Shown here: positions 6,888-20,951 of the stretch, one piece after another | Layout of the letters: every line of letters starts with the position of its first letter | How positions within the stretch are numbered: the first letter of the stretch is position 1 | Origin: Mucilaginibacter robiniae | Lineage (GTDB): Bacteria > Bacteroidota > Bacteroidia > Sphingobacteriales > Sphingobacteriaceae | DNA: 64,000 nt | Direction: 5' to 3' | NCBI RefSeq assembly: GCF_012849215.1 | Contig: NZ_CP051682.1 | Coordinates: 1,426,001-1,490,000, forward strand | Program-made: the position numbers and the translations under genes | Notes under the pieces: generated by a model | What the model was told of the DNA's origin: nothing | The model's input: the letters and a program-made list of their open reading frames with translations, nothing else | Database searches by the model: none

Positions 6888-7853
6888 TTAATAATTAGTT
6901 ACGCTTACCACGTTCATGTCATATCGTAAGCAACTGTTTACCGGTACAGTAACTGTAGCGGCTTCAGAGCCTGAAGCTGTTGAAGTACCAAAGGCCATAC
7001 GAGAAGGCATAACGATGGTAAGCTTAGCTCCAGCGGTAACTTTAGTAAGTGGCAATATCCACCCTTTAGGGAATAAACCCGTTAAATTAAACAAGTTCAC
7101 GGCTTCGCCAGTATTGGTTGCATTGGTGCCCTGATCGTTATACTGATCGAACATCGTACCGTTCAGTAGAAAGCCGCTGTATTGAAGGTACACGGTTGAG
7201 TTGCTGGTAATAGCATCAACACCAGTACCAGCCTGACTAACTTTATAATAAACCCCGTCAGGCTTATTAGTTGCTGGATCAATAACCTGGGTAAAGCCAA
7301 CCAAGCTATTGGCCGACATATATTTTTGTACAGTTAAATCATCGTAAGCAGTCTGATCATTAATTACGTTAACATAATAATCCAAACTTTCATTACCCTG
7401 CAGACGTGAACTCCCGGTACCAGATCCTGAAGAGCCATAAGCCAAATGTGAAGGAATTAGCAAGTGCGCACGAGTTCCTTTATTTTTTACCAGGTTATAC
7501 ATAGCTAGCTGCAATCCGGAGGGTGTTAATGTACCTACATAAGAATAAGAATGATTTAAAACTGTATCACTTACGGTGTACTTACCATCCAGTGATTTAA
7601 TAGTGTACACAAAAGATATATCATCAGAGTACTTCAACGTTGCACCTGTACCCTGCGATAGTATTTCATAGTAAATACCGGTAGTATCCCCACCTGTAGG
7701 GTCACGTTTCATATTAGTAAGACCGTTAGATTTGATGTATGCCTGTATTTGCTGTTCATCATACGCCTTTAGGCTAATATCGGTTTTATCTTTCCGGCAT
7801 GAATACAAGCACAGTGTGCCCAAGAGAAAAAGTGCAGTATAAAGTTGTTTCAT
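6888..7853 (-). CDS. FKBP-type peptidyl-prolyl isomerase lipoprotein (two domains)
   Basis: 321 residues. Signal peptide with lipobox ending LCLYSC predicts a lipoprotein. Two FKBP-like repeats follow: the first with GTRAHLLIPSHLAYG, the second with GWILPLTKVTAGAKLTIVMP and MAFG. FKBP proteins catalyse cis/trans isomerisation at proline; this arrangement resembles GldI-like periplasmic FKBP lipoproteins of Bacteroidota. It is encoded 5 bp after a shorter paralogue, so the two form an operon. Aromatic active-site residues are only partly conserved, so a chaperone role without full isomerase activity is possible. Confidence 0.82.
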   Translation of the reverse strand: MKQLYTALFLLGTLCLYSCRKDKTDISLKAYDEQQIQAYIKSNGLTNMKRDPTGGDTTGIYYEILSQGTGATLKYSDDISFVYTIKSLDGKYTVSDTVLNHSYSYVGTLTPSGLQLAMYNLVKNKGTRAHLLIPSHLAYGSSGSGTGSSRLQGNESLDYYVNVINDQTAYDDLTVQKYMSANSLVGFTQVIDPATNKPDGVYYKVSQAGTGVDAITSNSTVYLQYSGFLLNGTMFDQYNDQGTNATNTGEAVNLFNLTGLFPKGWILPLTKVTAGAKLTIVMPSRMAFGTSTASGSEAATVTVPVNSCLRYDMNVVSVTNY

Positions 7854-7858
7854 TTAAA

Positions 7859-8362
7859 TTAATTCGTTACATCAAAAATAGTAATGGTAAAATCGAGCAC
7901 AGTGTTGGCGGGTAAACCTAACTCTGTCTGTGCATAAGGGCCATAAGCATAGCGCGAAGGTATGAATATTCTGATAGTCCCTCCTTTATTAACTACGCCT
8001 TTTTGCAGAACCAGTTGCCAGCCTTTAATTACTTCGCCCAAAGCAAATGAGGGATGATAAGTACCTGTTTGTTGAAACGAAGTTGAACTTCCCAGCTTGT
8101 AAGCTGAATAACCCACCGTAATTTGGGTAGAGGAAGTATAAACTGAGCTGGTTGTACCTTTTTGCAATACAATGTAGCGGATACCAGTAGTATCACTAGG
8201 ACTTAACTTTTCGGCTGTTAAGTTGTTAGCTGTAATGTAATCAGTTATGAGTTGATCATCAATAGCACTTTGATTGCTGTTAACCACAGCAGGATCATCG
8301 ACTTTTTTACAGCCGGCAAAAATGCATACACACAAACTTAATATAATTAAAACCTTATTCAT
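7859..8362 (-). CDS. FKBP-type peptidyl-prolyl isomerase lipoprotein (single domain)
   Basis: 167 residues with a lipoprotein signal peptide (lipobox CIFAGC), then one FKBP-like domain containing GEVIKGWQLVLQKG and IRIFIPSRYAYGP and ending LDFTITIFDV. Probably periplasmic, membrane-anchored, assisting folding of exported proteins. First gene of a two-gene unit with the two-domain paralogue 5 bp downstream; the pair looks like a tandem duplication followed by domain doubling. Confidence 0.82.
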   Translation of the reverse strand: MNKVLIILSLCVCIFAGCKKVDDPAVVNSNQSAIDDQLITDYITANNLTAEKLSPSDTTGIRYIVLQKGTTSSVYTSSTQITVGYSAYKLGSSTSFQQTGTYHPSFALGEVIKGWQLVLQKGVVNKGGTIRIFIPSRYAYGPYAQTELGLPANTVLDFTITIFDVTN

Positions 8363-9008: not shown

Positions 9009-10205
9009 TTACTTAGGCATAAAAGCTACGGTACCGCCAACCCAGTCATAATCTTTATTATAGCGCACGCCAATCATTTTGCCTCGGCTTAAGCGAGCCA
9101 GGTTAACAGCTAAGGTAGGTTCAGCATCTCCATCTGGCCATAAATAAAGTAGCCTGATTTCGGCTTTTACGCCATCATCGGGTGCTTGCACTACCGGCTC
9201 ATAGTACACCTTTTCCTGCAAAATCCAGTTTTCGGGATCTTTAATATCAGCAATATCCTGCTGCGTTACATCAATAATTACCCCTTGCCCGGCAAAAGAA
9301 AAAAGCGGTTTCAATACATAATTTTCTAAGTCGGTAGGTATGGTACCTAACTCATGTAAAAAGTAGGTTTTCGGGATAGCTTCCCCTTGCAGGAAAGGCA
9401 TAGTAAACTTACTGATGCGATAAAACCAGTTAGGATGGGTAATCCATTCTACATCCAACGGTTGGCGTATATCTACGCTATTTTCAAACGGATTGCCATC
9501 GGTATCAATTTCGTCAAAAATCAACCGATTGTAAATGCGTTTAATCAGCTTATCTTCACCATCTTCTGCCGTATAAAACAGCTGATTGCCTTTTTGCTTG
9601 AGTTCGCTTAAGGATACAATAGGCGTACCCAGGTATTGTTGGGTAACTTTAAAATCAATCAATGTTTTTTGAGAATGAGCGTTTACATCCATCAACACTA
9701 CTTCTTCGGGCTGGTGGGGGCCTAAAACAGTTTTTTTAAACAAATCCAGATAATTGGCTTTGGTCATCCCATTAAAGTAAATGGTCCAGACATCAGGAAT
9801 ATCAAACACTTCGCGGTAAGCATCACCTAAAAGCACCTGAAAACCGTATAAAGACGGGAAACCCTGTAACTCAATCAACTTAGGCACAATATTACCTTCT
9901 GCATCCTGGCAAACGCCAAAATCAATAGCCATAAAATGCGGATGATCGTTCTCGTTTGCAACACGCCATTTATCTGGAATGGCACGTTCAGTTAGCTGTT
10001 TAAAATCGGGCTGCAATACTGTTTTCAGAATATCACGGCTGGCAGCCAGCAGACGATCATGAAAGTCAGCGGTTAGGAATACCGGTGTTTCAGCCACACG
10101 AAATGCTATAGGTAGCAACTGACCGGCATTAAGTTGCTTAAGTAGCTGACGGTATTTTTCAGGGCTGTAATTTTTATTATAAGCAGTTCGTATATCGTAT
10201 TGCAT
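9009..10205 (-). CDS. ATP-grasp ligase-like protein
   Basis: 398 residues, cytoplasmic. Features of an ATP-grasp ligase: YVLKPLFSFAGQGV (lysine plus glycine-rich loop over ATP), WILQEKV (adenine-contacting hinge with Glu), KAEIRLLY and the C-terminal NLARLSRGKMIG metal/phosphate region. N-terminal KLIELQGFPSLYGFQ recalls glutathionylspermidine-synthase-like and permuted ATP-grasp proteins. Such enzymes join a carboxylate to an amine through an acyl-phosphate. Neighbours are an amidotransferase, a carboxylate-amine ligase and a second ATP-grasp protein, pointing to a shared pathway making a peptide-like product. Substrates unknown. Confidence 0.72.
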   Translation of the reverse strand: MQYDIRTAYNKNYSPEKYRQLLKQLNAGQLLPIAFRVAETPVFLTADFHDRLLAASRDILKTVLQPDFKQLTERAIPDKWRVANENDHPHFMAIDFGVCQDAEGNIVPKLIELQGFPSLYGFQVLLGDAYREVFDIPDVWTIYFNGMTKANYLDLFKKTVLGPHQPEEVVLMDVNAHSQKTLIDFKVTQQYLGTPIVSLSELKQKGNQLFYTAEDGEDKLIKRIYNRLIFDEIDTDGNPFENSVDIRQPLDVEWITHPNWFYRISKFTMPFLQGEAIPKTYFLHELGTIPTDLENYVLKPLFSFAGQGVIIDVTQQDIADIKDPENWILQEKVYYEPVVQAPDDGVKAEIRLLYLWPDGDAEPTLAVNLARLSRGKMIGVRYNKDYDWVGGTVAFMPK

Positions 10206-10279
10206 GATCTTAAACTTTATAGCAATAATTAGATGCAGATGTAAAGGTCTTTGCTATTTGGAGACCTCAATCATAATCG

Positions 10280-10306
10280 TGTTCGTAGTCTAAAAGACTA
10301 CGAACA
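10280..10306 (-). terminator. Hairpin between ATP-grasp and amidotransferase genes
   Basis: Perfect 11-bp stem (TGTTCGTAGTC / GACTACGAACA) with a 5-nt loop. It lies 55 bp beyond the amidotransferase stop in the direction of transcription and is not followed by a strong U-tract. Possible terminator, attenuator or RNA-stabilising stem separating the two genes. Confidence 0.5.
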
Positions 10307-10360
10307 GCTAAAATATTTTCATTTAAAGCAGGCTTTAGCTGTGCTTCTTGAATTGACACT

Positions 10361-11203
10361 TTAAGCTTCTTGCAGGCTTAATATAGCCTGATCTAGAAAG
10401 TTGGGAATCATGGTAGTTTGCGTAAGCAATATTTTGTCCGGATCTTCCAAGCGCTCAATCATTTCATGATATTTTGCTTCGCCATGCTCATCAACCACTT
10501 GCTGCTTCTTTTCATCATTCAGCAAGTGTGCCGTCATCCCTACCGGATCGGCTTCGGGATGAAATTGGGTACCTACAAAGTATTCATTAAAACGAACGGC
10601 CATTATGGCACGAGGCAAATCAATATGCGGGCGTTCTTTTTCGATAGCCAGCAAAGTAGCTCCTGTAGCCTTGAACTGCTCTTCATTAGGATGCACCACC
10701 TGCCACGAACGTGAATCAACCGCATAGAAAGGGTCGTTAAGTCCTTCAAAAATCACATCCTGCAAACCACCCTCCACAAGATTTACCGGCAATACACCAA
10801 ATGAAGGTGAACGACGCAAGCTTACATTACCCAACTGCAAACGGCGGCACATTAATTGGAAAGAATGGCATACAAAAAACACGTGCTTTTTAGGACCATC
10901 AGTAGTTTGATTATGCTCTTCCAACTGATCAATCAGGTTAAAGTATTTAGTTTCCCAATTACTGCCTTCACTGTCAATCGGGCTGCCCGGGCCACCGCTA
11001 GATAGGTAAATATCAAACTCAGTACCGGGTACTTCTTCCTTTTTGCGCACGTCAAATATCTGGTAACTTAGGTTTACATGATTACTGATTTTATAACGTG
11101 CCACTATCTCCTGAAAACAACGCATACCCTGGTTAGGCTGCCCATCGTATAAATCCAGAATAGCTATTTTTATTTCTTGCGTGTCTTTCGTCGTCGTTGC
11201 CAT
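10361..11203 (-). CDS. Class I glutamine amidotransferase-like protein
   Basis: About 280 residues from the ATG at 11203. The longer frame begins with TTG at 11215, overlapping the upstream stop, and would add four residues. Class I GATase fold: LSSGGPGSP (oxyanion-strand region), nucleophile segment FFVCHSFQ, and FVGTQFHPEAD supplying His and Glu of the triad. The nucleophile elbow reads C-H-S-F-Q rather than the usual C-x-G-x-Q, so ammonia production is plausible but not certain. It directly follows the GCS2-type ligase gene (gap 8 bp from this ATG, or an overlap with TTG), implying co-translation and a joint reaction. Confidence 0.83.
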   Translation of the reverse strand: MATTTKDTQEIKIAILDLYDGQPNQGMRCFQEIVARYKISNHVNLSYQIFDVRKKEEVPGTEFDIYLSSGGPGSPIDSEGSNWETKYFNLIDQLEEHNQTTDGPKKHVFFVCHSFQLMCRRLQLGNVSLRRSPSFGVLPVNLVEGGLQDVIFEGLNDPFYAVDSRSWQVVHPNEEQFKATGATLLAIEKERPHIDLPRAIMAVRFNEYFVGTQFHPEADPVGMTAHLLNDEKKQQVVDEHGEAKYHEMIERLEDPDKILLTQTTMIPNFLDQAILSLQEA

Positions 11204-11211
11204 TACTCTGC

Positions 11212-12309
11212 TCAAATGCCCTTTAATGTTTGTGAGGTAATAAAATCTACCACATCTACAAAGTTACCCTTTTGCTGATAAACCGCCAATTGCCGGTCGG
11301 CGCCATTACCATGTTCCAATATCTTGTGAATGTAATTTAAATCATCTCGGCAGCCCAAATCATCTACCACATCATCAACAAAATCAAGCAGCTCCAGAAT
11401 CAATAAACGGGTATTTACTTCCTGCTGCTTGCCAAAATCAATTAGCTTGCCATCAATACCATAGCGGGCAGCGCGCCATTTGTTCTCATTGATTAAGGCA
11501 CGCGGATAGGTGATAAACTTCATGTTTTGTAACCTTAGTTTGTACAGCTTGGCACATAAAGCCTGGAACATGGCTGTAAAAGCAATAGTTTCATCTACCA
11601 GCATCGGGCAATCACATATCCTGAACTCGATGGTTTCATAAAATGGATGCACACGAATATCCCACCAGATTTTTTTGGCATTGTCAATGCAGTTGGTTTT
11701 TACCAGCAGCTTGATGTAATTATCATACTCCTCAATACTGTTAAATAAATCTGGTATACCGGTACGTGGAAACTTATCAAATACTTTGGTACGGAACGAC
11801 CGGAAGCCAGTATTACGCCCTTCCCAAAACGGTGAGTTGGCACTTAGCGCAAACACGTGCGGCAAAAAGTAGCGCACTTGGTTGGCAATATGAATAGCCA
11901 TTTCGCGAGATTGGATACCCACATGCACGTGTAAGCCAAAAATCAGGTTAGAGCGTGCAGCATCCTGCAGCTCATCTACAATTTCATTATAGCGCGGATG
12001 CTCAGTAATTAGTTGGTGTTGCCAATGTGAAAAAGGATGCGTACCTGCCGCACCTATGCGCAAGCCCATATCACCAGCTAATTGAGCTACCGTAAGGCGA
12101 AGCTTACTTACTTCTTTGCGGGCTTCTTCAGTATTGCGGCATATGTGAGTTCCTACTTCTACCACGGCCTGGTGCATTTCGGCCTTTACCTGATCTTCAT
12201 GAATGCGCTGTGCGCTATCTACAATTTTTTGCTCGTGCGATTTTAGTTCCCGGCTTACCGGATCAACCACCATAAATTCTTCTTCAACCCCTACAGTAAA
12301 CTCATTCAT
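11212..12309 (-). CDS. Carboxylate-amine ligase, GCS2/YbdK family
   Basis: 365 residues of the glutamate-cysteine ligase type 2 family (COG2170). MNEFTVGVEEEFMVVDP gives the metal-binding acidic motif, LHVHVGI and EFRICDCPM are the other conserved blocks, and WRAARYGIDGKLIDF is the C-terminal signature. The family forms amide or peptide bonds with ATP; E. coli YbdK has weak gamma-glutamylcysteine ligase activity. Its stop is next to the amidotransferase start. Together with two ATP-grasp proteins and esterases it suggests synthesis of a modified di- or oligopeptide rather than glutathione. Confidence 0.88.
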   Translation of the reverse strand: MNEFTVGVEEEFMVVDPVSRELKSHEQKIVDSAQRIHEDQVKAEMHQAVVEVGTHICRNTEEARKEVSKLRLTVAQLAGDMGLRIGAAGTHPFSHWQHQLITEHPRYNEIVDELQDAARSNLIFGLHVHVGIQSREMAIHIANQVRYFLPHVFALSANSPFWEGRNTGFRSFRTKVFDKFPRTGIPDLFNSIEEYDNYIKLLVKTNCIDNAKKIWWDIRVHPFYETIEFRICDCPMLVDETIAFTAMFQALCAKLYKLRLQNMKFITYPRALINENKWRAARYGIDGKLIDFGKQQEVNTRLLILELLDFVDDVVDDLGCRDDLNYIHKILEHGNGADRQLAVYQQKGNFVDVVDFITSQTLKGI

Positions 12310-12341
12310 AGCGCATGTATTTTGGTGTCACTAACAATCAG

Positions 12342-12387
12342 GTTACTCCGGGCCTTATCATGATTCAATGGTAATGCCCGGAGTAAC
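12342..12387 (-). terminator. Terminator-like hairpin after ATP-grasp gene
   Basis: Perfect 12-bp stem GTTACTCCGGGC / GCCCGGAGTAAC with a 22-nt loop, 13 bp beyond the stop of the second ATP-grasp gene on the minus strand. It separates that gene from the GCS2-type ligase gene, so the two may be distinct transcripts or linked by partial readthrough. Confidence 0.55.
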
Positions 12388-12399
12388 ACTGCTATCCAC

Positions 12400-13641
12400 T
12401 TATTCCTTTTTCTTTGTTGTTTTCTTAGCTTTTGGTTTGACTACCGACTCAGTTTCGGCTTTAGGTTCTTCCACTACAGGGATAGCAGTCTTGGTAGCTT
12501 TAGTTGCTTTGGCAGGCTTAGGTTTCGCTTCGGTTGTTGTGGCTGGCTGCTCAGCTTTAAGTTCTTTTACAGCCTTGGGCTTAGCTGCTTTTTTAGGCTT
12601 GTCTTCACCTGTAAGTTTACCTTCATCAGTAATGGCGTGGTCAACTTGTGTTACAGTTACATCAGTTGCCTTTACAGGTTTAGCGCTCACCAATGGGCTT
12701 TTACCTACCGAAGTTTTTACATATTCGCCCCAGGTTAAATTATCTGCATCCGGCTTTTGCTGCTTGGCGCGTTCAATAGCGTAATTAGCCGCTGTTTCAA
12801 CTACCCATTCAAAGTTTTCTTCACCTACGCTTTTGATGTCGGCATCAGGTGCCGGGTTACAGAAATCAATGGCGTAAGGTATGCCATCGCGTACGGCAAA
12901 CTCTACCGTGTTAAAATCATAGCCCAGGTACTGGTTCAATTTTAATACATACTCTTTAATGGTATCCAGCAGTTTTTGGTCGGCTGGTGCTTTACCGTGT
13001 TCGTAACGTAAGTGGTGCGGGTTGCGTGGCTCATATTGCATAATACGAACATGCTTGCCGCCTATGCAATAGCAACGGAAGTAATCTTCAAAAATAATTT
13101 CTTCCTGCAACAGCATCACTAGCTGGCCGGTACCTTCAAACTTTTTCCAAAGGTCTTCTTTGTCGCTGATTTTGTAAACATCGCGCCAGCCGCCGCCATC
13201 AAATGGTTTCATGTAAGCCGGAAAGCCTACATAATCGAATATGCCATCCCAATCCAGCGGGTAAGCCAGGTTGCGGAATGATTTTTCATTAGTATCAGTT
13301 GGGTGCTCTCTGGAAGGCAACAGTACGGTTTTAGGTACAGGTACACCTAACTTAACAGCTAGCGCATTGTTGAAAAACTTTTCATCAGCGCTCCACCAGA
13401 AAGGGTTATTAATAACGGCAGTGCCTGATATAGCTGCATTTTTAAGGGCAGCACGATAAAACGGCACATCTTGCGAAATGCGGTCAACAATAACGGCGTA
13501 GTCCAACGGCTCGCCTTGCAGCACTTTGTCAACACGTACAAATTCTGCGGTAATGTCTTTTTCGCCTTTTGCGTTGATCCGATCAACAAAGGCTTGCGGG
13601 AATGAATCTTCTTGTCCGAAAAGAATACCTATTTTTTTCAT
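12400..13641 (-). CDS. ATP-grasp protein with Lys/Ala/Pro-rich tail
   Basis: 413 residues. Residues 1 to about 290 form an ATP-grasp (RimK/D-Ala ligase-like) enzyme: YMKPFDGGGWRDVYKI (lysine and glycine loop), LLQEEIIFEDYFRCY (hinge) and FAVRDGIPYAIDFCNPAPD (metal-binding acid and Asn). From about residue 345 to the end is a low-complexity tail dominated by Lys, Ala, Pro, Thr and Glu, ending KPKAKKTTKKKE and resembling histone-H1-like tails. Such a tail is not needed for catalysis and could bind nucleic acid, polyanions or a partner. First gene of the minus-strand ligase cluster; probably joins an amino acid or peptide to an amine. Confidence 0.82.
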   Translation of the reverse strand: MKKIGILFGQEDSFPQAFVDRINAKGEKDITAEFVRVDKVLQGEPLDYAVIVDRISQDVPFYRAALKNAAISGTAVINNPFWWSADEKFFNNALAVKLGVPVPKTVLLPSREHPTDTNEKSFRNLAYPLDWDGIFDYVGFPAYMKPFDGGGWRDVYKISDKEDLWKKFEGTGQLVMLLQEEIIFEDYFRCYCIGGKHVRIMQYEPRNPHHLRYEHGKAPADQKLLDTIKEYVLKLNQYLGYDFNTVEFAVRDGIPYAIDFCNPAPDADIKSVGEENFEWVVETAANYAIERAKQQKPDADNLTWGEYVKTSVGKSPLVSAKPVKATDVTVTQVDHAITDEGKLTGEDKPKKAAKPKAVKELKAEQPATTTEAKPKPAKATKATKTAIPVVEEPKAETESVVKPKAKKTTKKKE

Positions 13642-13747
13642 AGTGATAATTGTTAGTTCTTAGCGCTAGTGTTAACAGGCTGCTATTAATGGGTATAAAT
13701 GTTTAATACTGAATTTGTTTAACTTTTATATATTTCTTGTTTAAATA

Positions 13748-14455
13748 CTACCTGATGGTTGATAAATAATGCGGAAACATTTCTTTCCAAACCGGCCAGT
13801 CATGCAGGGCTTGGCCCCGTACATCCAACCAGTGATGAATACGTTTATGATTCAGCAGGTGTGATAAATGTTCGTTGTAGCCTTTGCAGATATCCCAATC
13901 TGAGGTACCTAAAATAATGTTCATTTGCCAAAGTTCATGGCGGTGGCTGCCGGGCAGATAATCGACCGGGTTGTTGTAAAAAATCGTGTCGTTATAATAA
14001 CCATCCGTAAACATCTTAATATCAAAGGCACCACCCATGCTAAACAGGTGTGCAACCCTTTCCGGATGTTTAAAGGCATAATTGGCAGCATGGTACCCGC
14101 CAAAACTACAGCCAGCTACTGCAACCTGATGTACACCGCATTCGTGCATAGCCCAGGGCACCAGCTCATCATGCAGCATACGGTCATAAAGCTCATAATT
14201 CCAGGCCCGGTCGCCAGGGTGAATACCTTTATTGTACCAGGTAAGTCCGTCAAGCGAATCAGGGCAATAAATTTTTATCAGCCCCTCATTTACAAACCAG
14301 CGAACGCTATCAATCAAGCCATGATCTTTATTTTGATGAAAGCTACCTTGCGAGGTCGGGAACAAAATAACCGGATAGCCACGGGTACCAAATACCAGCA
14401 TTTCTAAATCTCGCCCTAAATGATGAGAGTACCAGCGATGATAATGTTCAGTCAA
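13748..14455 (-). CDS. Esterase-family alpha/beta hydrolase
   Basis: 235 residues, cytoplasmic. Putative esterase (D-family) with nucleophile elbow VAGCSFGGYHAANYA and a C-terminal His in ALHDWPVWKEMFPHYL. The N-terminal EHYHRWYSHHLGRDLEMLVFG matches the usual start of these small esterases, so the TTG at 14455 is taken as start; the next Met is 18 residues in. It belongs to the ligase cluster and is transcribed in the same direction. Likely hydrolyses an ester or thioester intermediate or product of that pathway. Confidence 0.82.
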   Translation of the reverse strand: MTEHYHRWYSHHLGRDLEMLVFGTRGYPVILFPTSQGSFHQNKDHGLIDSVRWFVNEGLIKIYCPDSLDGLTWYNKGIHPGDRAWNYELYDRMLHDELVPWAMHECGVHQVAVAGCSFGGYHAANYAFKHPERVAHLFSMGGAFDIKMFTDGYYNDTIFYNNPVDYLPGSHRHELWQMNIILGTSDWDICKGYNEHLSHLLNHKRIHHWLDVRGQALHDWPVWKEMFPHYLSTIR

Positions 14456-14627
14456 AGCAATAAATGTTTATTATAGTTGAAAAGGGGTAAGATAGCGTGT
14501 TTGTTTGAGTTGAACATCATAAAGCAGTACAATTGACCAAAAATTGCTACTTAACTGCAACAGTGGCCCATTTTTGTACGTTATAACTATGTTTTTAAAC
14601 TTATTTTAATCCGGTTGTTTAAATTAT

Positions 14628-15407
14628 ATGCTTGTAACTGAAAATACATTAACCCTATCATCGGCTTTATTGGAACGTGAGGTAACCTGCACCATACTTT
14701 TACCTGAAAATACAGAGCCCCAGAGTTTGTTATTGTTAAATGATGGACAAGAACTGGAAAATTTAAACTTAAAAACCCTGTTGGAGTACCAGTATGAGCG
14801 TAATGGTATTACACCTTTGTTGGTAGTGGCTGTTCATGCTGGTCCGGAACGCGTACAGGAATACGGAGTAGCCGGCGAACTCGACTTTAAGAAAAGAGGC
14901 TCTAAAGCTTCTGCTTATACCCAGTTTATTCTGGAAGAGCTATTGCCAGCTATTAGTAAAGAAACCGGTTTTTATAATTTTAAAACTAAAGTTTACGCCG
15001 GCTTTTCGCTGGGTGGCCTTTCAGCACTGGATATTACCTGGCATCATGCAGATGTATTTCAAAAAGCAGGTATATTTTCAGGATCACTGTGGTGGCGCAG
15101 CCGGGATTTGGCCGATGACTACACTGATAATGACCGTATTATGCACCGCGTAATACGCGATACGGCAGGCAAACCTGATGTTAAGTTATGGCTGCAAACC
15201 GGCACTAAAGATGAAGCGGCCGACCGCAACCAAAACGGCATTATTGATTCGATTGATGATACGGTTGATTTAATTAAGGAACTGGAAACTAAAGGTTACA
15301 CCCGCCCGCACGATATACAATATTTAGAAATGATAGGCGGAGAACACAACTCGGCTACCTGGGCAAAAGCCCTGCCTAAGTTCTTGTGCTGGGCTTTTGC
15401 CAGCTAA
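14628..15407 (+). CDS. Esterase-family alpha/beta hydrolase
   Basis: 259 residues, putative esterase with nucleophile elbow VYAGFSLGGLSALDIT and active-site His in IGGEHNSATWAKALP. Similar in fold to Fes/IroE-type and antigen-85-like esterases. Diverges from the other esterase across a 172-bp region. Two esterases placed back to back beside the ligase set suggests both act in the same pathway. An insertion DRNQNGIIDSIDD looks like a Ca-binding EF-hand-like loop. Confidence 0.8.
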   Translation: MLVTENTLTLSSALLEREVTCTILLPENTEPQSLLLLNDGQELENLNLKTLLEYQYERNGITPLLVVAVHAGPERVQEYGVAGELDFKKRGSKASAYTQFILEELLPAISKETGFYNFKTKVYAGFSLGGLSALDITWHHADVFQKAGIFSGSLWWRSRDLADDYTDNDRIMHRVIRDTAGKPDVKLWLQTGTKDEAADRNQNGIIDSIDDTVDLIKELETKGYTRPHDIQYLEMIGGEHNSATWAKALPKFLCWAFAS

Positions 15408-17342: not shown

Positions 17343-17372
17343 AAAAAGGTAGGCCTTAAAGCCTACCTTTTT
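17343..17372. terminator. Bidirectional terminator typA / FkbM
   Basis: Perfect stem GGTAGGC / GCCTACC extended by an A-run and T-run (five A-T pairs), 6-nt loop. It serves typA on the plus strand and overlaps the last codons and stop of the convergent FkbM gene, whose transcript also ends here. Confidence 0.88.
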
Positions 17373-18055
17373 TGTTTAAAAATTAAAGTTCGTAAGGTTT
17401 TGCCGGCAACTTCATAACCTTGTTCGGCTAAAAAGCTATGCGCTTCTGAGGCATCTAAATAGCTAAAATTAATATCAGCATCTTCGGCCAGTACAAAACG
17501 AGGACGGTATTTGTCCCAATTATTGGATTGCAGCACATCTACATCCAAGCCCGAAACATCTACACTCATAAAATTAATTACGATATCAGCCGGTAAATAT
17601 TGATCCAGCACCTGAGCCAACGGACGCACTTCTACTTCGGCGGTTGAAACAATGTGGTAAGGTGTATCTTCCTGATCACGGCTTTCAGATAAAGCTTTAT
17701 CAAAACTATTCAGTGCTGATTCATTAAAACAATACAGCGTTAGTTTACCGGGTTGTTCACCTATACCGATGTTTAGGTTAACATCACGTTTACGATATTG
17801 TTCAAATAACTGCATCGCAGCTGGCGTAGGTTCAATATTAATACCCTGCCAGCCTAGCTCATAAAAATGCATGGTGTTAGAAAACCGGTAAGGGTGATGA
17901 GCGCCAATATCAATATAAAAGCCGCGATAATCATTGAAGTTTGGAATGCTTTCGGCCAGTAAACTTCTTAATATCATATCCTCACCATCTTGCGAGTAAG
18001 AATGGTAGGGTTTAAAGTCGGGATGATTAAGCATCATATCTTCATTCTGAAACAT
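17363..18055 (-). CDS. FkbM-family methyltransferase
   Basis: 230 residues. Class I SAM-binding core of FkbM type: SQDGEDMILRSL, GFYIDIGAHHPYRFSNT (motif I), WQGINIEPTPAAMQLF, VNLNIGIGEQPG and FMSVDVSGLDVDVL. These enzymes O-methylate hydroxyl groups in glycans or polyketides. It sits next to, but convergent from typA and divergent to, a flippase/methyltransferase/glycosyltransferase run, so methyl decoration of a surface polysaccharide is likely. Confidence 0.87.
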   Translation of the reverse strand: MFQNEDMMLNHPDFKPYHSYSQDGEDMILRSLLAESIPNFNDYRGFYIDIGAHHPYRFSNTMHFYELGWQGINIEPTPAAMQLFEQYRKRDVNLNIGIGEQPGKLTLYCFNESALNSFDKALSESRDQEDTPYHIVSTAEVEVRPLAQVLDQYLPADIVINFMSVDVSGLDVDVLQSNNWDKYRPRFVLAEDADINFSYLDASEAHSFLAEQGYEVAGKTLRTLIFKQKR

Positions 18056-18183
18056 AAGGTAACATTATTAATGAGCGAATGTATTCGGGCAAATAAACAT
18101 AATTTAATAAATATATTTCGGGTTTACTTAAGCAACTGTACGCTGCTGATATAATTACAGCCTATAGTAGTTAATCATTTTTT

Positions 18184-18191
18184 TACCTTTG
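18184..18191 (+). promoter_or_regulatory. Flippase-operon -7 box, possibly leaderless
   Basis: TACCTTTG is a perfect TAnnTTTG box, and the ATG at 18198 begins only 6 nt after it, the same spacing as at marR. A -33 TTG is not obvious. The start site would coincide with or nearly touch the initiation codon. Confidence 0.5.
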
Positions 18192-18197
18192 CGATTT

Positions 18198-19529
18198 ATG
18201 CGCATACCCAGCATTCCAGGATTTGACCAGCAAGCCTTTGAAAAGTATTTAAAGAATACCGGCTGGCTCATGTTGGCTAAAGTTGGTGTAATGCTGGTCA
18301 AAAGTGTGGTCACTACGTTTGCCTTATCCAACTATCTGGAAGCTTCGCAATTCGGCATACTTAACTACCCCATGACGATCGTTACCTTCTCGACGGCTAT
18401 CGCTGCGCTGGGCTTGGATGGTTTTGTTACGCGTGAACTAATTAGCCGCCCGGAAAAGAAGGAAGCTTATTTAGGTACAGCTTTTATCTTACGCTTGTTA
18501 GCTGGTTTTGGCACGTTACCGCTGGTCTATCTGGCTTATCATATTATTAACAGTGCAAAGCCGTTACAAACGCCTTTTCATTATGTACTTATTGTAGCGT
18601 TTATAGCTGTGGTGCAGTCAGTTAATATTATTGATAGCTTCTTTCAATCTAAGGTGCAAGGCAAGTACATTATGTATGTACAATTGGCAGGCAACGTACT
18701 ATCTACGCTTACTAAGCTGGCTTTTATTGTGCTAAAGCTACCTTTAATATGGTTTGTGTATTCGTTGTTGCTGGATGCTGTTTTTGTAGCTGGCAGCTAC
18801 CTGGTCATGTATCAGCTTAAAGGTAACCACATACAGCGCTGGAAATTTGATAGCAGCATTGCCGGTTACTTATTAAAACATTCGTGGCCTCTAGCCTTTT
18901 CGGCTGTACTGAATACCATTTACATGAAAATAGATCAGGGCATGATTGGCACTTACCTGGAAATTAAACAACTGGGTATTTACTCTAACGTAGCCAACCT
19001 GAGCGAGAGTTATTACTTCATCCCCTTAGCGGTAGTATCATCGGTGTTCCCGGCTATTATGCATGCCCGCAACACCGACCAGGAACGTTATTACAAACGG
19101 TTACAAAACCTATACGACCTCATGGTGGTTTTAAGCGTTGGGGCTGCTATTGTATTAAGTTTTGGATCAACCTACATTTACCACTGGTTCCTGAAAAGAG
19201 AATATTGGGCTGGTGCACCAGTACTGGCTGTTTACGTATGGGCTGGTGTTTTTGCTTTTTTAGGTGTGGCTAGCGGCCAGTATCTAATTGCCGAAGGCTA
19301 CACTAAGTTAGCTATGCTGCGCACGGCTGCCGGGGCACTAGTTAACGTAATTTTAAACATATTCTGGATACCGCGGTATGGTATAATGGGCGCTGCTTAT
19401 GCCACATTGATAGCTTATGGGGTAGCTGCATTTTTTATTTTATTTATTCCTCGAACGCGTGGGCAGGGAATACAAATGTTAAAATCATTATTCTTAATTT
19501 CACTTTTTCAAAAAATAACTAACCGTTGA
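18198..19529 (+). CDS. Polysaccharide flippase (Wzx/MOP type)
   Basis: 443 residues from ATG 18198; the earlier in-frame TTG at 18189 lies in the -7 box. About 12 transmembrane segments, typical of the oligosaccharide flippase branch of the MOP superfamily. N-terminal GWLMLAKVGVMLVKSVVTTF, middle SWPLAFSAVLNTIYMKIDQGMIG and C-terminal LVNVILNIFWIPRYGIMGAA are characteristic. It moves lipid-linked oligosaccharide units across the inner membrane. First gene of a rightward run with two methyltransferases and a (broken) glycosyltransferase. Confidence 0.9.
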   Translation: MRIPSIPGFDQQAFEKYLKNTGWLMLAKVGVMLVKSVVTTFALSNYLEASQFGILNYPMTIVTFSTAIAALGLDGFVTRELISRPEKKEAYLGTAFILRLLAGFGTLPLVYLAYHIINSAKPLQTPFHYVLIVAFIAVVQSVNIIDSFFQSKVQGKYIMYVQLAGNVLSTLTKLAFIVLKLPLIWFVYSLLLDAVFVAGSYLVMYQLKGNHIQRWKFDSSIAGYLLKHSWPLAFSAVLNTIYMKIDQGMIGTYLEIKQLGIYSNVANLSESYYFIPLAVVSSVFPAIMHARNTDQERYYKRLQNLYDLMVVLSVGAAIVLSFGSTYIYHWFLKREYWAGAPVLAVYVWAGVFAFLGVASGQYLIAEGYTKLAMLRTAAGALVNVILNIFWIPRYGIMGAAYATLIAYGVAAFFILFIPRTRGQGIQMLKSLFLISLFQKITNR

Positions 19530-20173
19530 GCAATATTTCCAAATTATTAAATCTGGCTAAAAACCCGGCAAGGCTGAAGTCTTTACTCTCTTTCAATGAA
19601 AAAGGGTACCTGGATACAGTGGGTTGGTTTAATGCCTTTGACAGCCAGGCACCGGTTGACTATAATAATCGTCCTATTCCTTGGGTAACGTATTCTTTTA
19701 TTGATTTTATTAAAGATCGTTTACGCCCCGAACATGCCGTATTTGAGTTTGGCTCCGGCAACTCCACTTTATTTTATGCTCAGCGTACCGGCATTGTAGT
19801 ATCAGTTGAACATGACCAAGAGTGGTACGAAAAGATAAACAAAACTAAACCTGATAACGCTGAAATTATATTTTGCGAGCTACAAACCGATGGCGATTAC
19901 TGCCGTATGCCTACTAAACTGGGCGAAGCGTTTGACATTATTATTGTAGATGGTCGTGACCGCGTAAACTGCTGCAAGCAGGCTGTAGGAGCTTTAACAC
20001 CCAATGGCGTCATTGTTTTGGATGATTCGGAAAGGCCGGATTATAAAGAAGGCGTTAATTTTTTACTGCAACAAGGCTTTAGGCAAATTCCATTTAGTGG
20101 CATATCGCCGGGTTTGTTCTACTATAAATCAACTACCGTTTTTTACAAGAGTGATAATTGTTTAGGTATTTAA
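19526..20173 (+). CDS. Class I SAM-dependent methyltransferase-like protein
   Basis: 215 residues. Rossmann-type core with [14 protein letters not shown] (SAM glycine loop), [14 protein letters not shown] (acidic residue after strand 2), [14 protein letters not shown] and [16 protein letters not shown]. Start is TTG at 19526, overlapping the flippase TGA; no in-frame ATG occurs before the fold begins, so this non-ATG start is well supported. Translationally coupled to the flippase; probably modifies a sugar of the exported glycan. Confidence 0.8.
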
Positions 20174-20177
20174 CGAT

Positions 20178-20951
20178 ATGGCTCATGAACAGCTAAGCGG
20201 CAATGTAAAAACCGCCTACGACGAATTTTACAAAAAACATGATGAAGCCTGGCGTATGCTAGGTGCCAAATACAAAGCTCAGCACATTATGCAAGTTTGC
20301 CAAGGCCGCACTTTTAACAAGGTGCTGGAAGTTGGCGCTGGTGATGGCAGTATTCTGCAAATTTTGTCGGAACATAATTTTGCGCCGGAGTACCAGGCCG
20401 TTGAAATTTCGGAGAGTGGCGTACAGTATATACAGGCTCGTCAAATTAAAAACCTACAATCGGTACAGGTATTTGACGGTTACCATTTGCCATTTGCCGA
20501 CGATAGCTTTGATTTGATTATCCTATCGCATGTGCTGGAACATGTGGAGCACGAAAGATTGTTGCTGCGCGAAATTAAGCGGGTAGCCAAAATGTGCGTA
20601 ATTGAGGTACCACGTGATTATAAAGCAGGCGTAGATGCGCGCTTACAGCACTTTTTAGCTTACGGGCATATCAATATGTACACGCCTACCCTACTGCGTT
20701 ACCTGTTGCGCACGGAAGGCTTTGAAGTAATAACCGACTTAACTTCCATGATTGAGCCGGAAGTAACCCGTTTTAATACCTATATCAATCAAAAGAAAGC
20801 CAAAAGCTTTGTTACTGATGTAAAAATAGCTGCTGAGTTTACGGCAAAAAAAGTAATGGGCAGCTTGATGGGTAAAAAAAAGCAGGAAGAACTGGCTAAT
20901 GCCTACACGATACTTTGCAGTAAAACCGCACGGCAAACCGAAATATTTTAA
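20178..20951 (+). CDS. Class I SAM-dependent methyltransferase
   Basis: 257 residues of the UbiE/Methyltransf_11 type: [16 protein letters not shown] (motif I), [35 protein letters not shown] (motifs II-III), then [14 protein letters not shown]. Separated by 4 bp from the previous gene and 14 bp from the next, so inside the glycan operon. Likely target is a sugar or lipid-carrier intermediate; the acceptor cannot be told from sequence. Confidence 0.86.

Follow-up and report, generated by a model that had tools for sequence, protein, structure and literature searches.

Operons that link several amide ligases were reportedly surveyed by Iyer et al. in 2009. YgiC and YjfC have been reported as peptide-spermidine ligases (Pederick 2023, as cited in the accessible part of PMC12568646), and the same part of that source describes the fungal E-64 pathway, in which an ATP-grasp enzyme of the same fold makes pseudodipeptides. 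Operons linking several amide ligases of different folds have also been noted earlier (PMC4431377, accessible part), and the locus analyzed here resembles them in that ATP-grasp and other carboxylate-amine ligases are mixed in one operon. This locus occupies positions 9009-15407 of a 64,000-nt stretch of Mucilaginibacter robiniae DNA from NZ_CP051682.1 (the whole stretch is hereafter called the window) and contains six genes: two ATP-grasp ligases (RIMK and GSPS), a YbdK-type ligase (GCS2), a glutamine amidotransferase-fold protein (GAT) and two esterases (EST1 and EST2). The interpretation that we favor, with moderate confidence, is that the six genes represent one Bacteroidota biosynthetic module which builds a small peptide-like amide without a ribosome or a nonribosomal peptide synthetase (NRPS). 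RIMK and a GSPS-type ligase, whose linkage is shown below, form the core of the set and would act in the same pathway; the product, the substrates and the role of GAT are what we infer. Compared to the known multi-ligase operons, the new features are that the set is phylum-wide and modular, contains an obligate ligase pair, and has a replaced second ligase. No description of this gene set was found in the literature searched, including the accessible parts of PMC4431377, PMC2922099 and PMC12568646, with partly broad search terms and with the 2009 survey of Iyer et al. not covered.

The first-pass annotation, made from the sequence alone, had placed six open reading frames (ORFs) in this segment, five of them on one strand, and this placement was confirmed by the ORF list and the family scans. 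The order of transcription on the minus strand is EST1, RIMK, GCS2, GAT and GSPS, with EST2 divergent on the plus strand. The features are as follows, in window coordinates:

9009..10205, minus strand: GSPS, GSPS-type ligase, a permuted ATP-grasp protein of the YgiC/YjfC/glutathionylspermidine synthetase fold, 398 residues (ORF, predicted model, PDB fold matches).
10361..11215, minus strand: GAT, stand-alone class I glutamine amidotransferase-fold protein, 284 residues (PF00117; alternative ATG start at 11203).
11212..12309, minus strand: GCS2, carboxylate-amine ligase of the YbdK/PRK13515 family, 365 residues (PF04107, NF010039).
12400..13641, minus strand: RIMK, RimK/LysX/ArgX-fold ATP-grasp ligase, 413 residues, with a Lys/Ala/Pro-rich disordered tail after about residue 319 (model and PDB fold match).
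13748..14455, minus strand: EST1, PF00756 esterase, 235 residues, first gene of the presumed operon (Pfam).
14456..14627, no strand: EST1-EST2 divergent intergenic region of 172 bases, presumed promoter region (ORF coordinates; the divergent EST2 is recurrent).
14628..15407, plus strand: EST2, PF00756 esterase, 259 residues, divergent gene (Pfam).

A ligase/amidotransferase pair had been described as touching; the pair is GCS2 and GAT, whose ORFs share 4 bases if GAT begins at the listed TTG and are separated by an 8-base gap if the in-frame ATG at 11203 is used.

The arrangement of these genes around RIMK was analyzed in two sets of loci. The first set comprised 71 RIMK surroundings from a sample of 198 Bacteroidota genomes, with three divergent RIMK included and the window excluded; the second comprised the best 80 of at least 594 RIMK loci and is biased to close relatives. 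For each locus, the best match per partner gene within 7 kb of RIMK was counted, with ORFs called by a simple longest-ORF rule under which genes can be missed or misplaced. Among the 71 loci, GCS2 was present in 37, GSPS in 34, EST1 in 33, GAT in 32 and EST2 in 14; the corresponding numbers for the 80 loci were 79 for GCS2, 53 for GSPS, 56 for EST1, 54 for GAT and 70 for EST2. In both sets, GCS2, GAT and GSPS were always located downstream of RIMK and on the same strand, EST1 was always upstream and co-directional (33/71 and 56/80 loci), and EST2 was always upstream and on the opposite strand (14/71 and 70/80). All six genes were found together in 9/71 and 42/80 loci, the latter including representatives of Mucilaginibacter, Pedobacter, Pontibacter, Dyadobacter, Arundinibacter and Telluribacter. 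No plasmid-borne copies of RIMK or GSPS were found with tblastn at E<=1e-5.

The frequencies of the genes in the 198-genome sample, in which 43 genomes belong to a single family without the set (f16; f-numbers denote families), point to the same linkage. Relatives of RIMK were found in 72 genomes, GSPS in 60, GCS2 in 62 (all retained, two of them at 33-38% identity) and GAT in 51, or 50 once one weak match was excluded (in genome G010, E 6e-4). Three divergent RIMK matches (G007, G087 and G160; 34-43% identity) were removed, a choice made after seeing the data, which leaves 69 RIMK genomes from 24 families. All 69 contain GSPS and/or another permuted ATP-grasp ligase, c7, compared to 2 of the 129 other genomes; the second ligase is GSPS alone in 57 genomes, c7 alone in 11, and both in one. 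Because shared ancestry alone could mimic such co-occurrence, we used a within-family control. In the 13 families with mixed presence of RIMK, a GSPS-type ligase was found in 42/42 genomes with RIMK versus 2/39 without it, and within-family shuffles reached the observed joint counts in 0 of 20,000 replicates for each of four comparisons, RIMK with GSPS/c7, with GCS2, with GAT and with another ligase, c9. Relatives of EST1 are present in 90/198 genomes in the phylum-wide search, and EST1 was left out of the statistics because of paralogues.

There are 14 RIMK genomes without GSPS; 11 of these carry c7 between RIMK and GAT, as judged by coordinates, and the other three are the divergent RIMK matches set aside above. 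Strong c7 matches across the phylum were confined to exactly those 11 genomes and G137 (12 in total, after exclusion of six of 18 genomes that had weak partial matches only). Thus, c7 substitutes for GSPS in five families and in the same operon slot. By sequence, c7 matches 3n6x, the structure of a putative glutathionylspermidine synthase (E 1.5e-7), and the same structure is matched by the predicted GSPS model at the level of the fold (Z 23.4); in addition, c7 has sub-threshold matches to circularly permuted ATP-grasp families. Profile comparisons of GSPS with c7 and with RIMK gave no clear support for sequence homology (hhalign probabilities 7.3 and 0.1, respectively); therefore, c7 is treated here as a very distant replacement of a similar fold class. 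The ligase c9, an ATP-grasp_4 protein according to two scanned members, follows RIMK as well: strong matches were found in 42/198 genomes (seven of the initial 49, with weak partial matches, were excluded), namely, in 42/69 RIMK genomes versus 0/129 others. In families f3, f5 and f17, c9 is one or two genes away from the set, and the phylum-wide search did not find it in the genome of the window.

Two observations would suit unrelated housekeeping genes that became neighbors by accident: in some lineages the genes are dispersed, and within the genus of the window, three of 13 genomes (G198, G199 and G203) lack the GCS2 of this family. However, the co-occurrence of RIMK, GCS2 and GSPS persists where they are far apart, as in families f21, f23, f26 and f27, which favors the common module. 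In addition, the fixed side and strand, the co-occurrence within families and the exchange of GSPS and c7 in the same slot are all contrary to this explanation, which we consider highly improbable; at the level of linkage, unrelated neighbors are refuted. A chance neighborhood was likewise rejected by the fixed side and strand in the 71 and 80 loci together with the within-family co-occurrence. A lack of co-occurrence outside the genus had been named as a refuting outcome, and the set withstood this check: loci with all six genes are known from several families and genera, and co-occurrence of the ligases extends over the phylum.

The labels that the first-pass annotation had given to the six proteins hold as fold or family assignments. 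GSPS and RIMK have no Pfam family at E<=0.01, and GSPS also lacks an NCBIfam match. The predicted model of GSPS (mean predicted local distance difference test, pLDDT, 92.2) matches YgiC over the whole chain (Z 25.7, root-mean-square deviation 3.5, 342 aligned residues), and YjfC (Z 25.0) and the synthetase part of GspS (Z 24.1) follow closely; the fold matches also include trypanothione synthetase and eukaryotic glutathione synthetase. Thus, GSPS has the whole-chain fold of the YgiC/YjfC/GspS group and is "GSP-synthase-like" in this sense. It differs from that group in the identity over aligned residues, which is 13-15%, in a motif discussed below, and in being encoded in a multi-ligase operon. 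The sequence match to YgiC is weak (E 0.034, 16.2 bits). Because no Pfam family was found, including those of the GspS-type group such as GSP_synth, GSPS is classified as working like these enzymes rather than as a member of the group. The model also matches Cp1B, the ATP-grasp enzyme that acts with Cp1D in the fungal E-64 pathway (9cjn, Z 22.7). That pathway is likewise an NRPS-independent, stepwise amide synthesis; however, the organisms, the partner enzymes and the starting acid are different, and no oxygenase was identified in the window set.

The second ATP-grasp protein, described earlier as RimK-like with a tail, shares the RimK/LysX/ArgX fold over residues 1-294 (Z 21.0-21.8; the match to RimK has Z 21.8, root-mean-square deviation 2.7 and 257 aligned residues). 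It differs in being far below the curated RimK threshold (33.9 bits against TIGR00768, cut-off 143.4), in having a D-x-x-N motif in place of E-x-N, and in carrying a long basic tail in some lineages. In the window protein, this C-terminal part (window 12400-12687) is rich in Lys, Ala and Pro and predicted to be disordered, with pLDDT below 50 at residues 319-402. RimK adds residues to ribosomal protein S6; by analogy, RIMK could tag a protein or peptide with additional residues, and the tag could then be elaborated by GCS2 or the GSPS-type ligase. The RimK fold is consistent with such tagging, and the basic disordered tail, which could dock the tag or accept it, exceeds 30 residues in 52 of 134 RIMK proteins from several families (140 ORFs, six of which lack the anchor motif and were excluded). 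However, the tail is 15 residues or shorter in 68/134 proteins, and to our knowledge, ligases of the YbdK and GspS types act on small molecules. In addition, no gene for a carrier or tag stood out among the top 30 recurrent neighbor clusters, a weak point because these clusters include only ORFs of at least 90 residues. On balance, tagging appears unlikely.

The remaining four proteins each score above a family cut-off, in agreement with the types named in the first-pass annotation. GCS2 matches PF04107 at 1.3e-64 and exceeds the NCBIfam equivalog cut-off of NF010039/PRK13515 (537.5 bits versus 371); it matches the YbdK structure 1r8g at 5.8e-66, and the profile alignment with YbdK spans positions 5-338 of 369. 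GCS2 thus resembles the YbdK-type ligases, a family whose name gives no physiological product; in this locus it belongs to a gene set in which it is dispensable. GAT scores 33.3 bits against PF00117 (cut-off 22.8); C116, H219 and E221, which we take to be the catalytic Cys-His-Glu triad of class I glutamine amidotransferases, are invariant in 21/21 aligned rows, and so is the segment G74-G75-P76-G77. Against PF00756 (cut-off 22), EST1 scores 33.8 bits and EST2 scores 95.1 bits; the G-x-S-x-G serine of EST1 is present in the window protein and in 16/18 rows.

The Puu and Ipu pathways are gamma-glutamyl cycles for amines. A comparable cycle would have GCS2 glutamylate an amine and GAT later cleave the gamma-glutamyl bond, with the ATP-grasp ligases acting between these steps; the earlier suggestion that the amidotransferase trims a glutamyl unit would, with GCS2 adding that unit, correspond to a strict form of it. 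The contact between GCS2 and the amidotransferase-fold gene in the window favors this scheme, as do the aminotransferases and gamma-glutamyltransferases near some loci. However, GAT occurs without GCS2 in 11/50 genomes and GCS2 without GAT in 23/62, and because the two are lost independently, the cycle fits poorly. GAT tracks the GSPS-type ligase (50/50 GAT genomes) better than GCS2 (39/50), and a cycle of this kind leaves two obligate ATP-grasp ligases unexplained; therefore, we regard it as quite unlikely. Since every genome with GAT has a GSPS-type ligase, GAT most likely serves the step of that ligase.

Under the biosynthetic interpretation, the product would arise by successive ATP-dependent condensations, in which each ligase would form an acyl phosphate and then an amide bond, so that one small product would owe two of its bonds to RIMK and the GSPS-type ligase. 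Where GCS2 is present, it would join an amino acid and an amine in a gamma-glutamyl-type amide, and RIMK would attach an amino acid to a carboxylate. The carboxylate that remains would receive a cap from the GSPS-type ligase, either an amine (spermidine in the case of YgiC and YjfC) or ammonia; we propose these two options because the nearest folds are those of peptide-spermidine ligases and because GAT follows the GSPS-type ligase more closely than GCS2. GAT could supply ammonia to this step or remove a gamma-glutamyl group. The esterases may hydrolyze an ester or a thioester of the product or of a substrate, and c9, together with hydrolases such as the operonic amidohydrolase described below, may perform lineage-specific extra steps.

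Several observations weigh against this interpretation, and the first of them concern the composition of the set. GCS2 is found in 58/69 RIMK genomes and GAT in 49/69; because they are missing from 11/69 and 20/69, respectively, neither belongs to the core, and the set is modular. The earlier proposal that an ATP-driven pathway builds a short peptide or amide remains the best reading, with this correction. If all 72 RIMK genomes are retained, GSPS is present in 58/72, and GSPS or c7 in 69/72. Two genomes, G144 and G154, have GSPS and GCS2 without RIMK; in G154 (locus L199), GSPS, GAT and GCS2 follow one another on one strand with no RIMK beside them, even though the contig does not end there, and RIMK was not found in that genome. 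The Mantel correlations over 44 genomes (RIMK-GCS2, r = 0.77; RIMK-GSPS, 0.69; GCS2-GSPS, 0.80) do not take the species tree into account and add little. The second group of observations concerns the active sites. An E-x-Q motif (E112, Q114) is invariant in 27/27 aligned GSPS rows, and the metal-binding motif of GspS is E-x-N; in RIMK, D-x-x-N (D259, N262) is invariant in 31/31 rows at the place where D-Ala ligase has E-x-N. The metal sites are therefore not textbook ones, and the chemistry could differ. In two of the 18 EST1 rows, both from f15 RIMK operons (L043, 10061-10789; L058, 10055-10771), the nucleophile serine and a conserved histidine are lost, which suggests, from sequence comparison, a degenerate or repurposed esterase; with both residues lost, these copies may no longer be enzymes. 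Finally, the accessory neighbors described below were chosen after looking and without a control, and the aminotransferases and gamma-glutamyltransferases among them could fit a catabolic gamma-glutamyl cycle as well.

Another candidate product is a thiol related to glutathione or trypanothione. In this scheme, GCS2 would make gamma-Glu-Cys, an ATP-grasp ligase would extend it, the GSPS-type ligase would add an amine, and the esterases would resemble S-formylglutathione hydrolase, which is a PF00756 enzyme. The similarity of the GSPS fold to GspS, trypanothione synthetase and eukaryotic glutathione synthetase agrees with such a thiol, and so does the position of GCS2 in the YbdK group. Conversely, GCS2 is dispensable, as the 11 RIMK genomes without it indicate, and the bacillithiol family BshC (PF10079) is present in 196/198 genomes, with or without the set; a thiol made by the set would therefore not replace bacillithiol, and a bacillithiol substitute was rejected on these grounds. 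We give little credence to a thiol product and retain the small peptide-like amide as the preferred one.

Several accessory genes recur next to the set. An amidohydrolase (PF07969, with five of the ten cluster members scanned) is the immediate same-strand neighbor of a set gene, at -28 to +18 bases, in 10/10 loci that contain it, a spacing that looks as if the two genes were translationally coupled. It adjoins GSPS in L184, L185, L186, L188, L189, L190, L191 and L194, and GAT and GCS2 in L049 and L145; these loci belong to families f2, f23 and f26 and to one Flavihumibacter. An S10 carboxypeptidase (PF00450, with two of seven members scanned) abuts GCS2 in 6/7 loci at -3 to +58 bases, all in f23:

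L204, L206, L208, L209, L210 and L213, same strand as GCS2: S10 carboxypeptidase beside GCS2, family f23.

An M29 peptidase is located between GCS2 and GSPS in f18 and f29, and an Asparaginase_2 protein is found near the set in f3 and f17. In L157, L162, L166, L170 and L175 (Arundinibacter, Dyadobacter and Telluribacter; one lineage), the gene directly downstream of GSPS, and on its strand, encodes a class III aminotransferase-like protein; no named NCBIfam family matched these five proteins at E<=1e-150, and they could be substrate-supplying or catabolic partners. In three other loci, an ornithine transaminase (TIGR01885) is located 633-1418 bases upstream of EST2, and a gamma-glutamyltransferase was found near three loci, at distances of 184 to 6321 bases.

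Within the window, two adjacent FKBP-type peptidyl-prolyl isomerases occupy positions 6888-8362 and score below the BamJ family cut-off. The MarR and FKBP neighbors were considered as members of the set and rejected, as no match was found at E<=1e-8 in the 71 loci. Beyond TypA, positions 17363-20951 contain an FkbM-type methyltransferase, a polysaccharide export protein and a further methyltransferase, and may be a surface polysaccharide locus.

Because the set appears, disappears and rearranges together in 24 families, it probably makes something that its hosts use, and the recurrence of the fixed set is indicative of a widespread small molecule in Bacteroidota. A more specific proposal, which we advance only tentatively, is that Bacteroidota widely make a conserved amide, of a gamma-glutamyl or a peptide type, whose cap is a polyamine, another amine or ammonia. 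Its synthesis would depend on two obligate ATP-grasp ligases, and one of these would have been exchanged for a very distant ligase of a similar fold class while the pathway was kept. RIMK and GSPS provide a short list of genes that could reveal the metabolite, and a function would thereby come to families that have been left unnamed or called only "carboxylate-amine ligase" or "glutamine amidotransferase".

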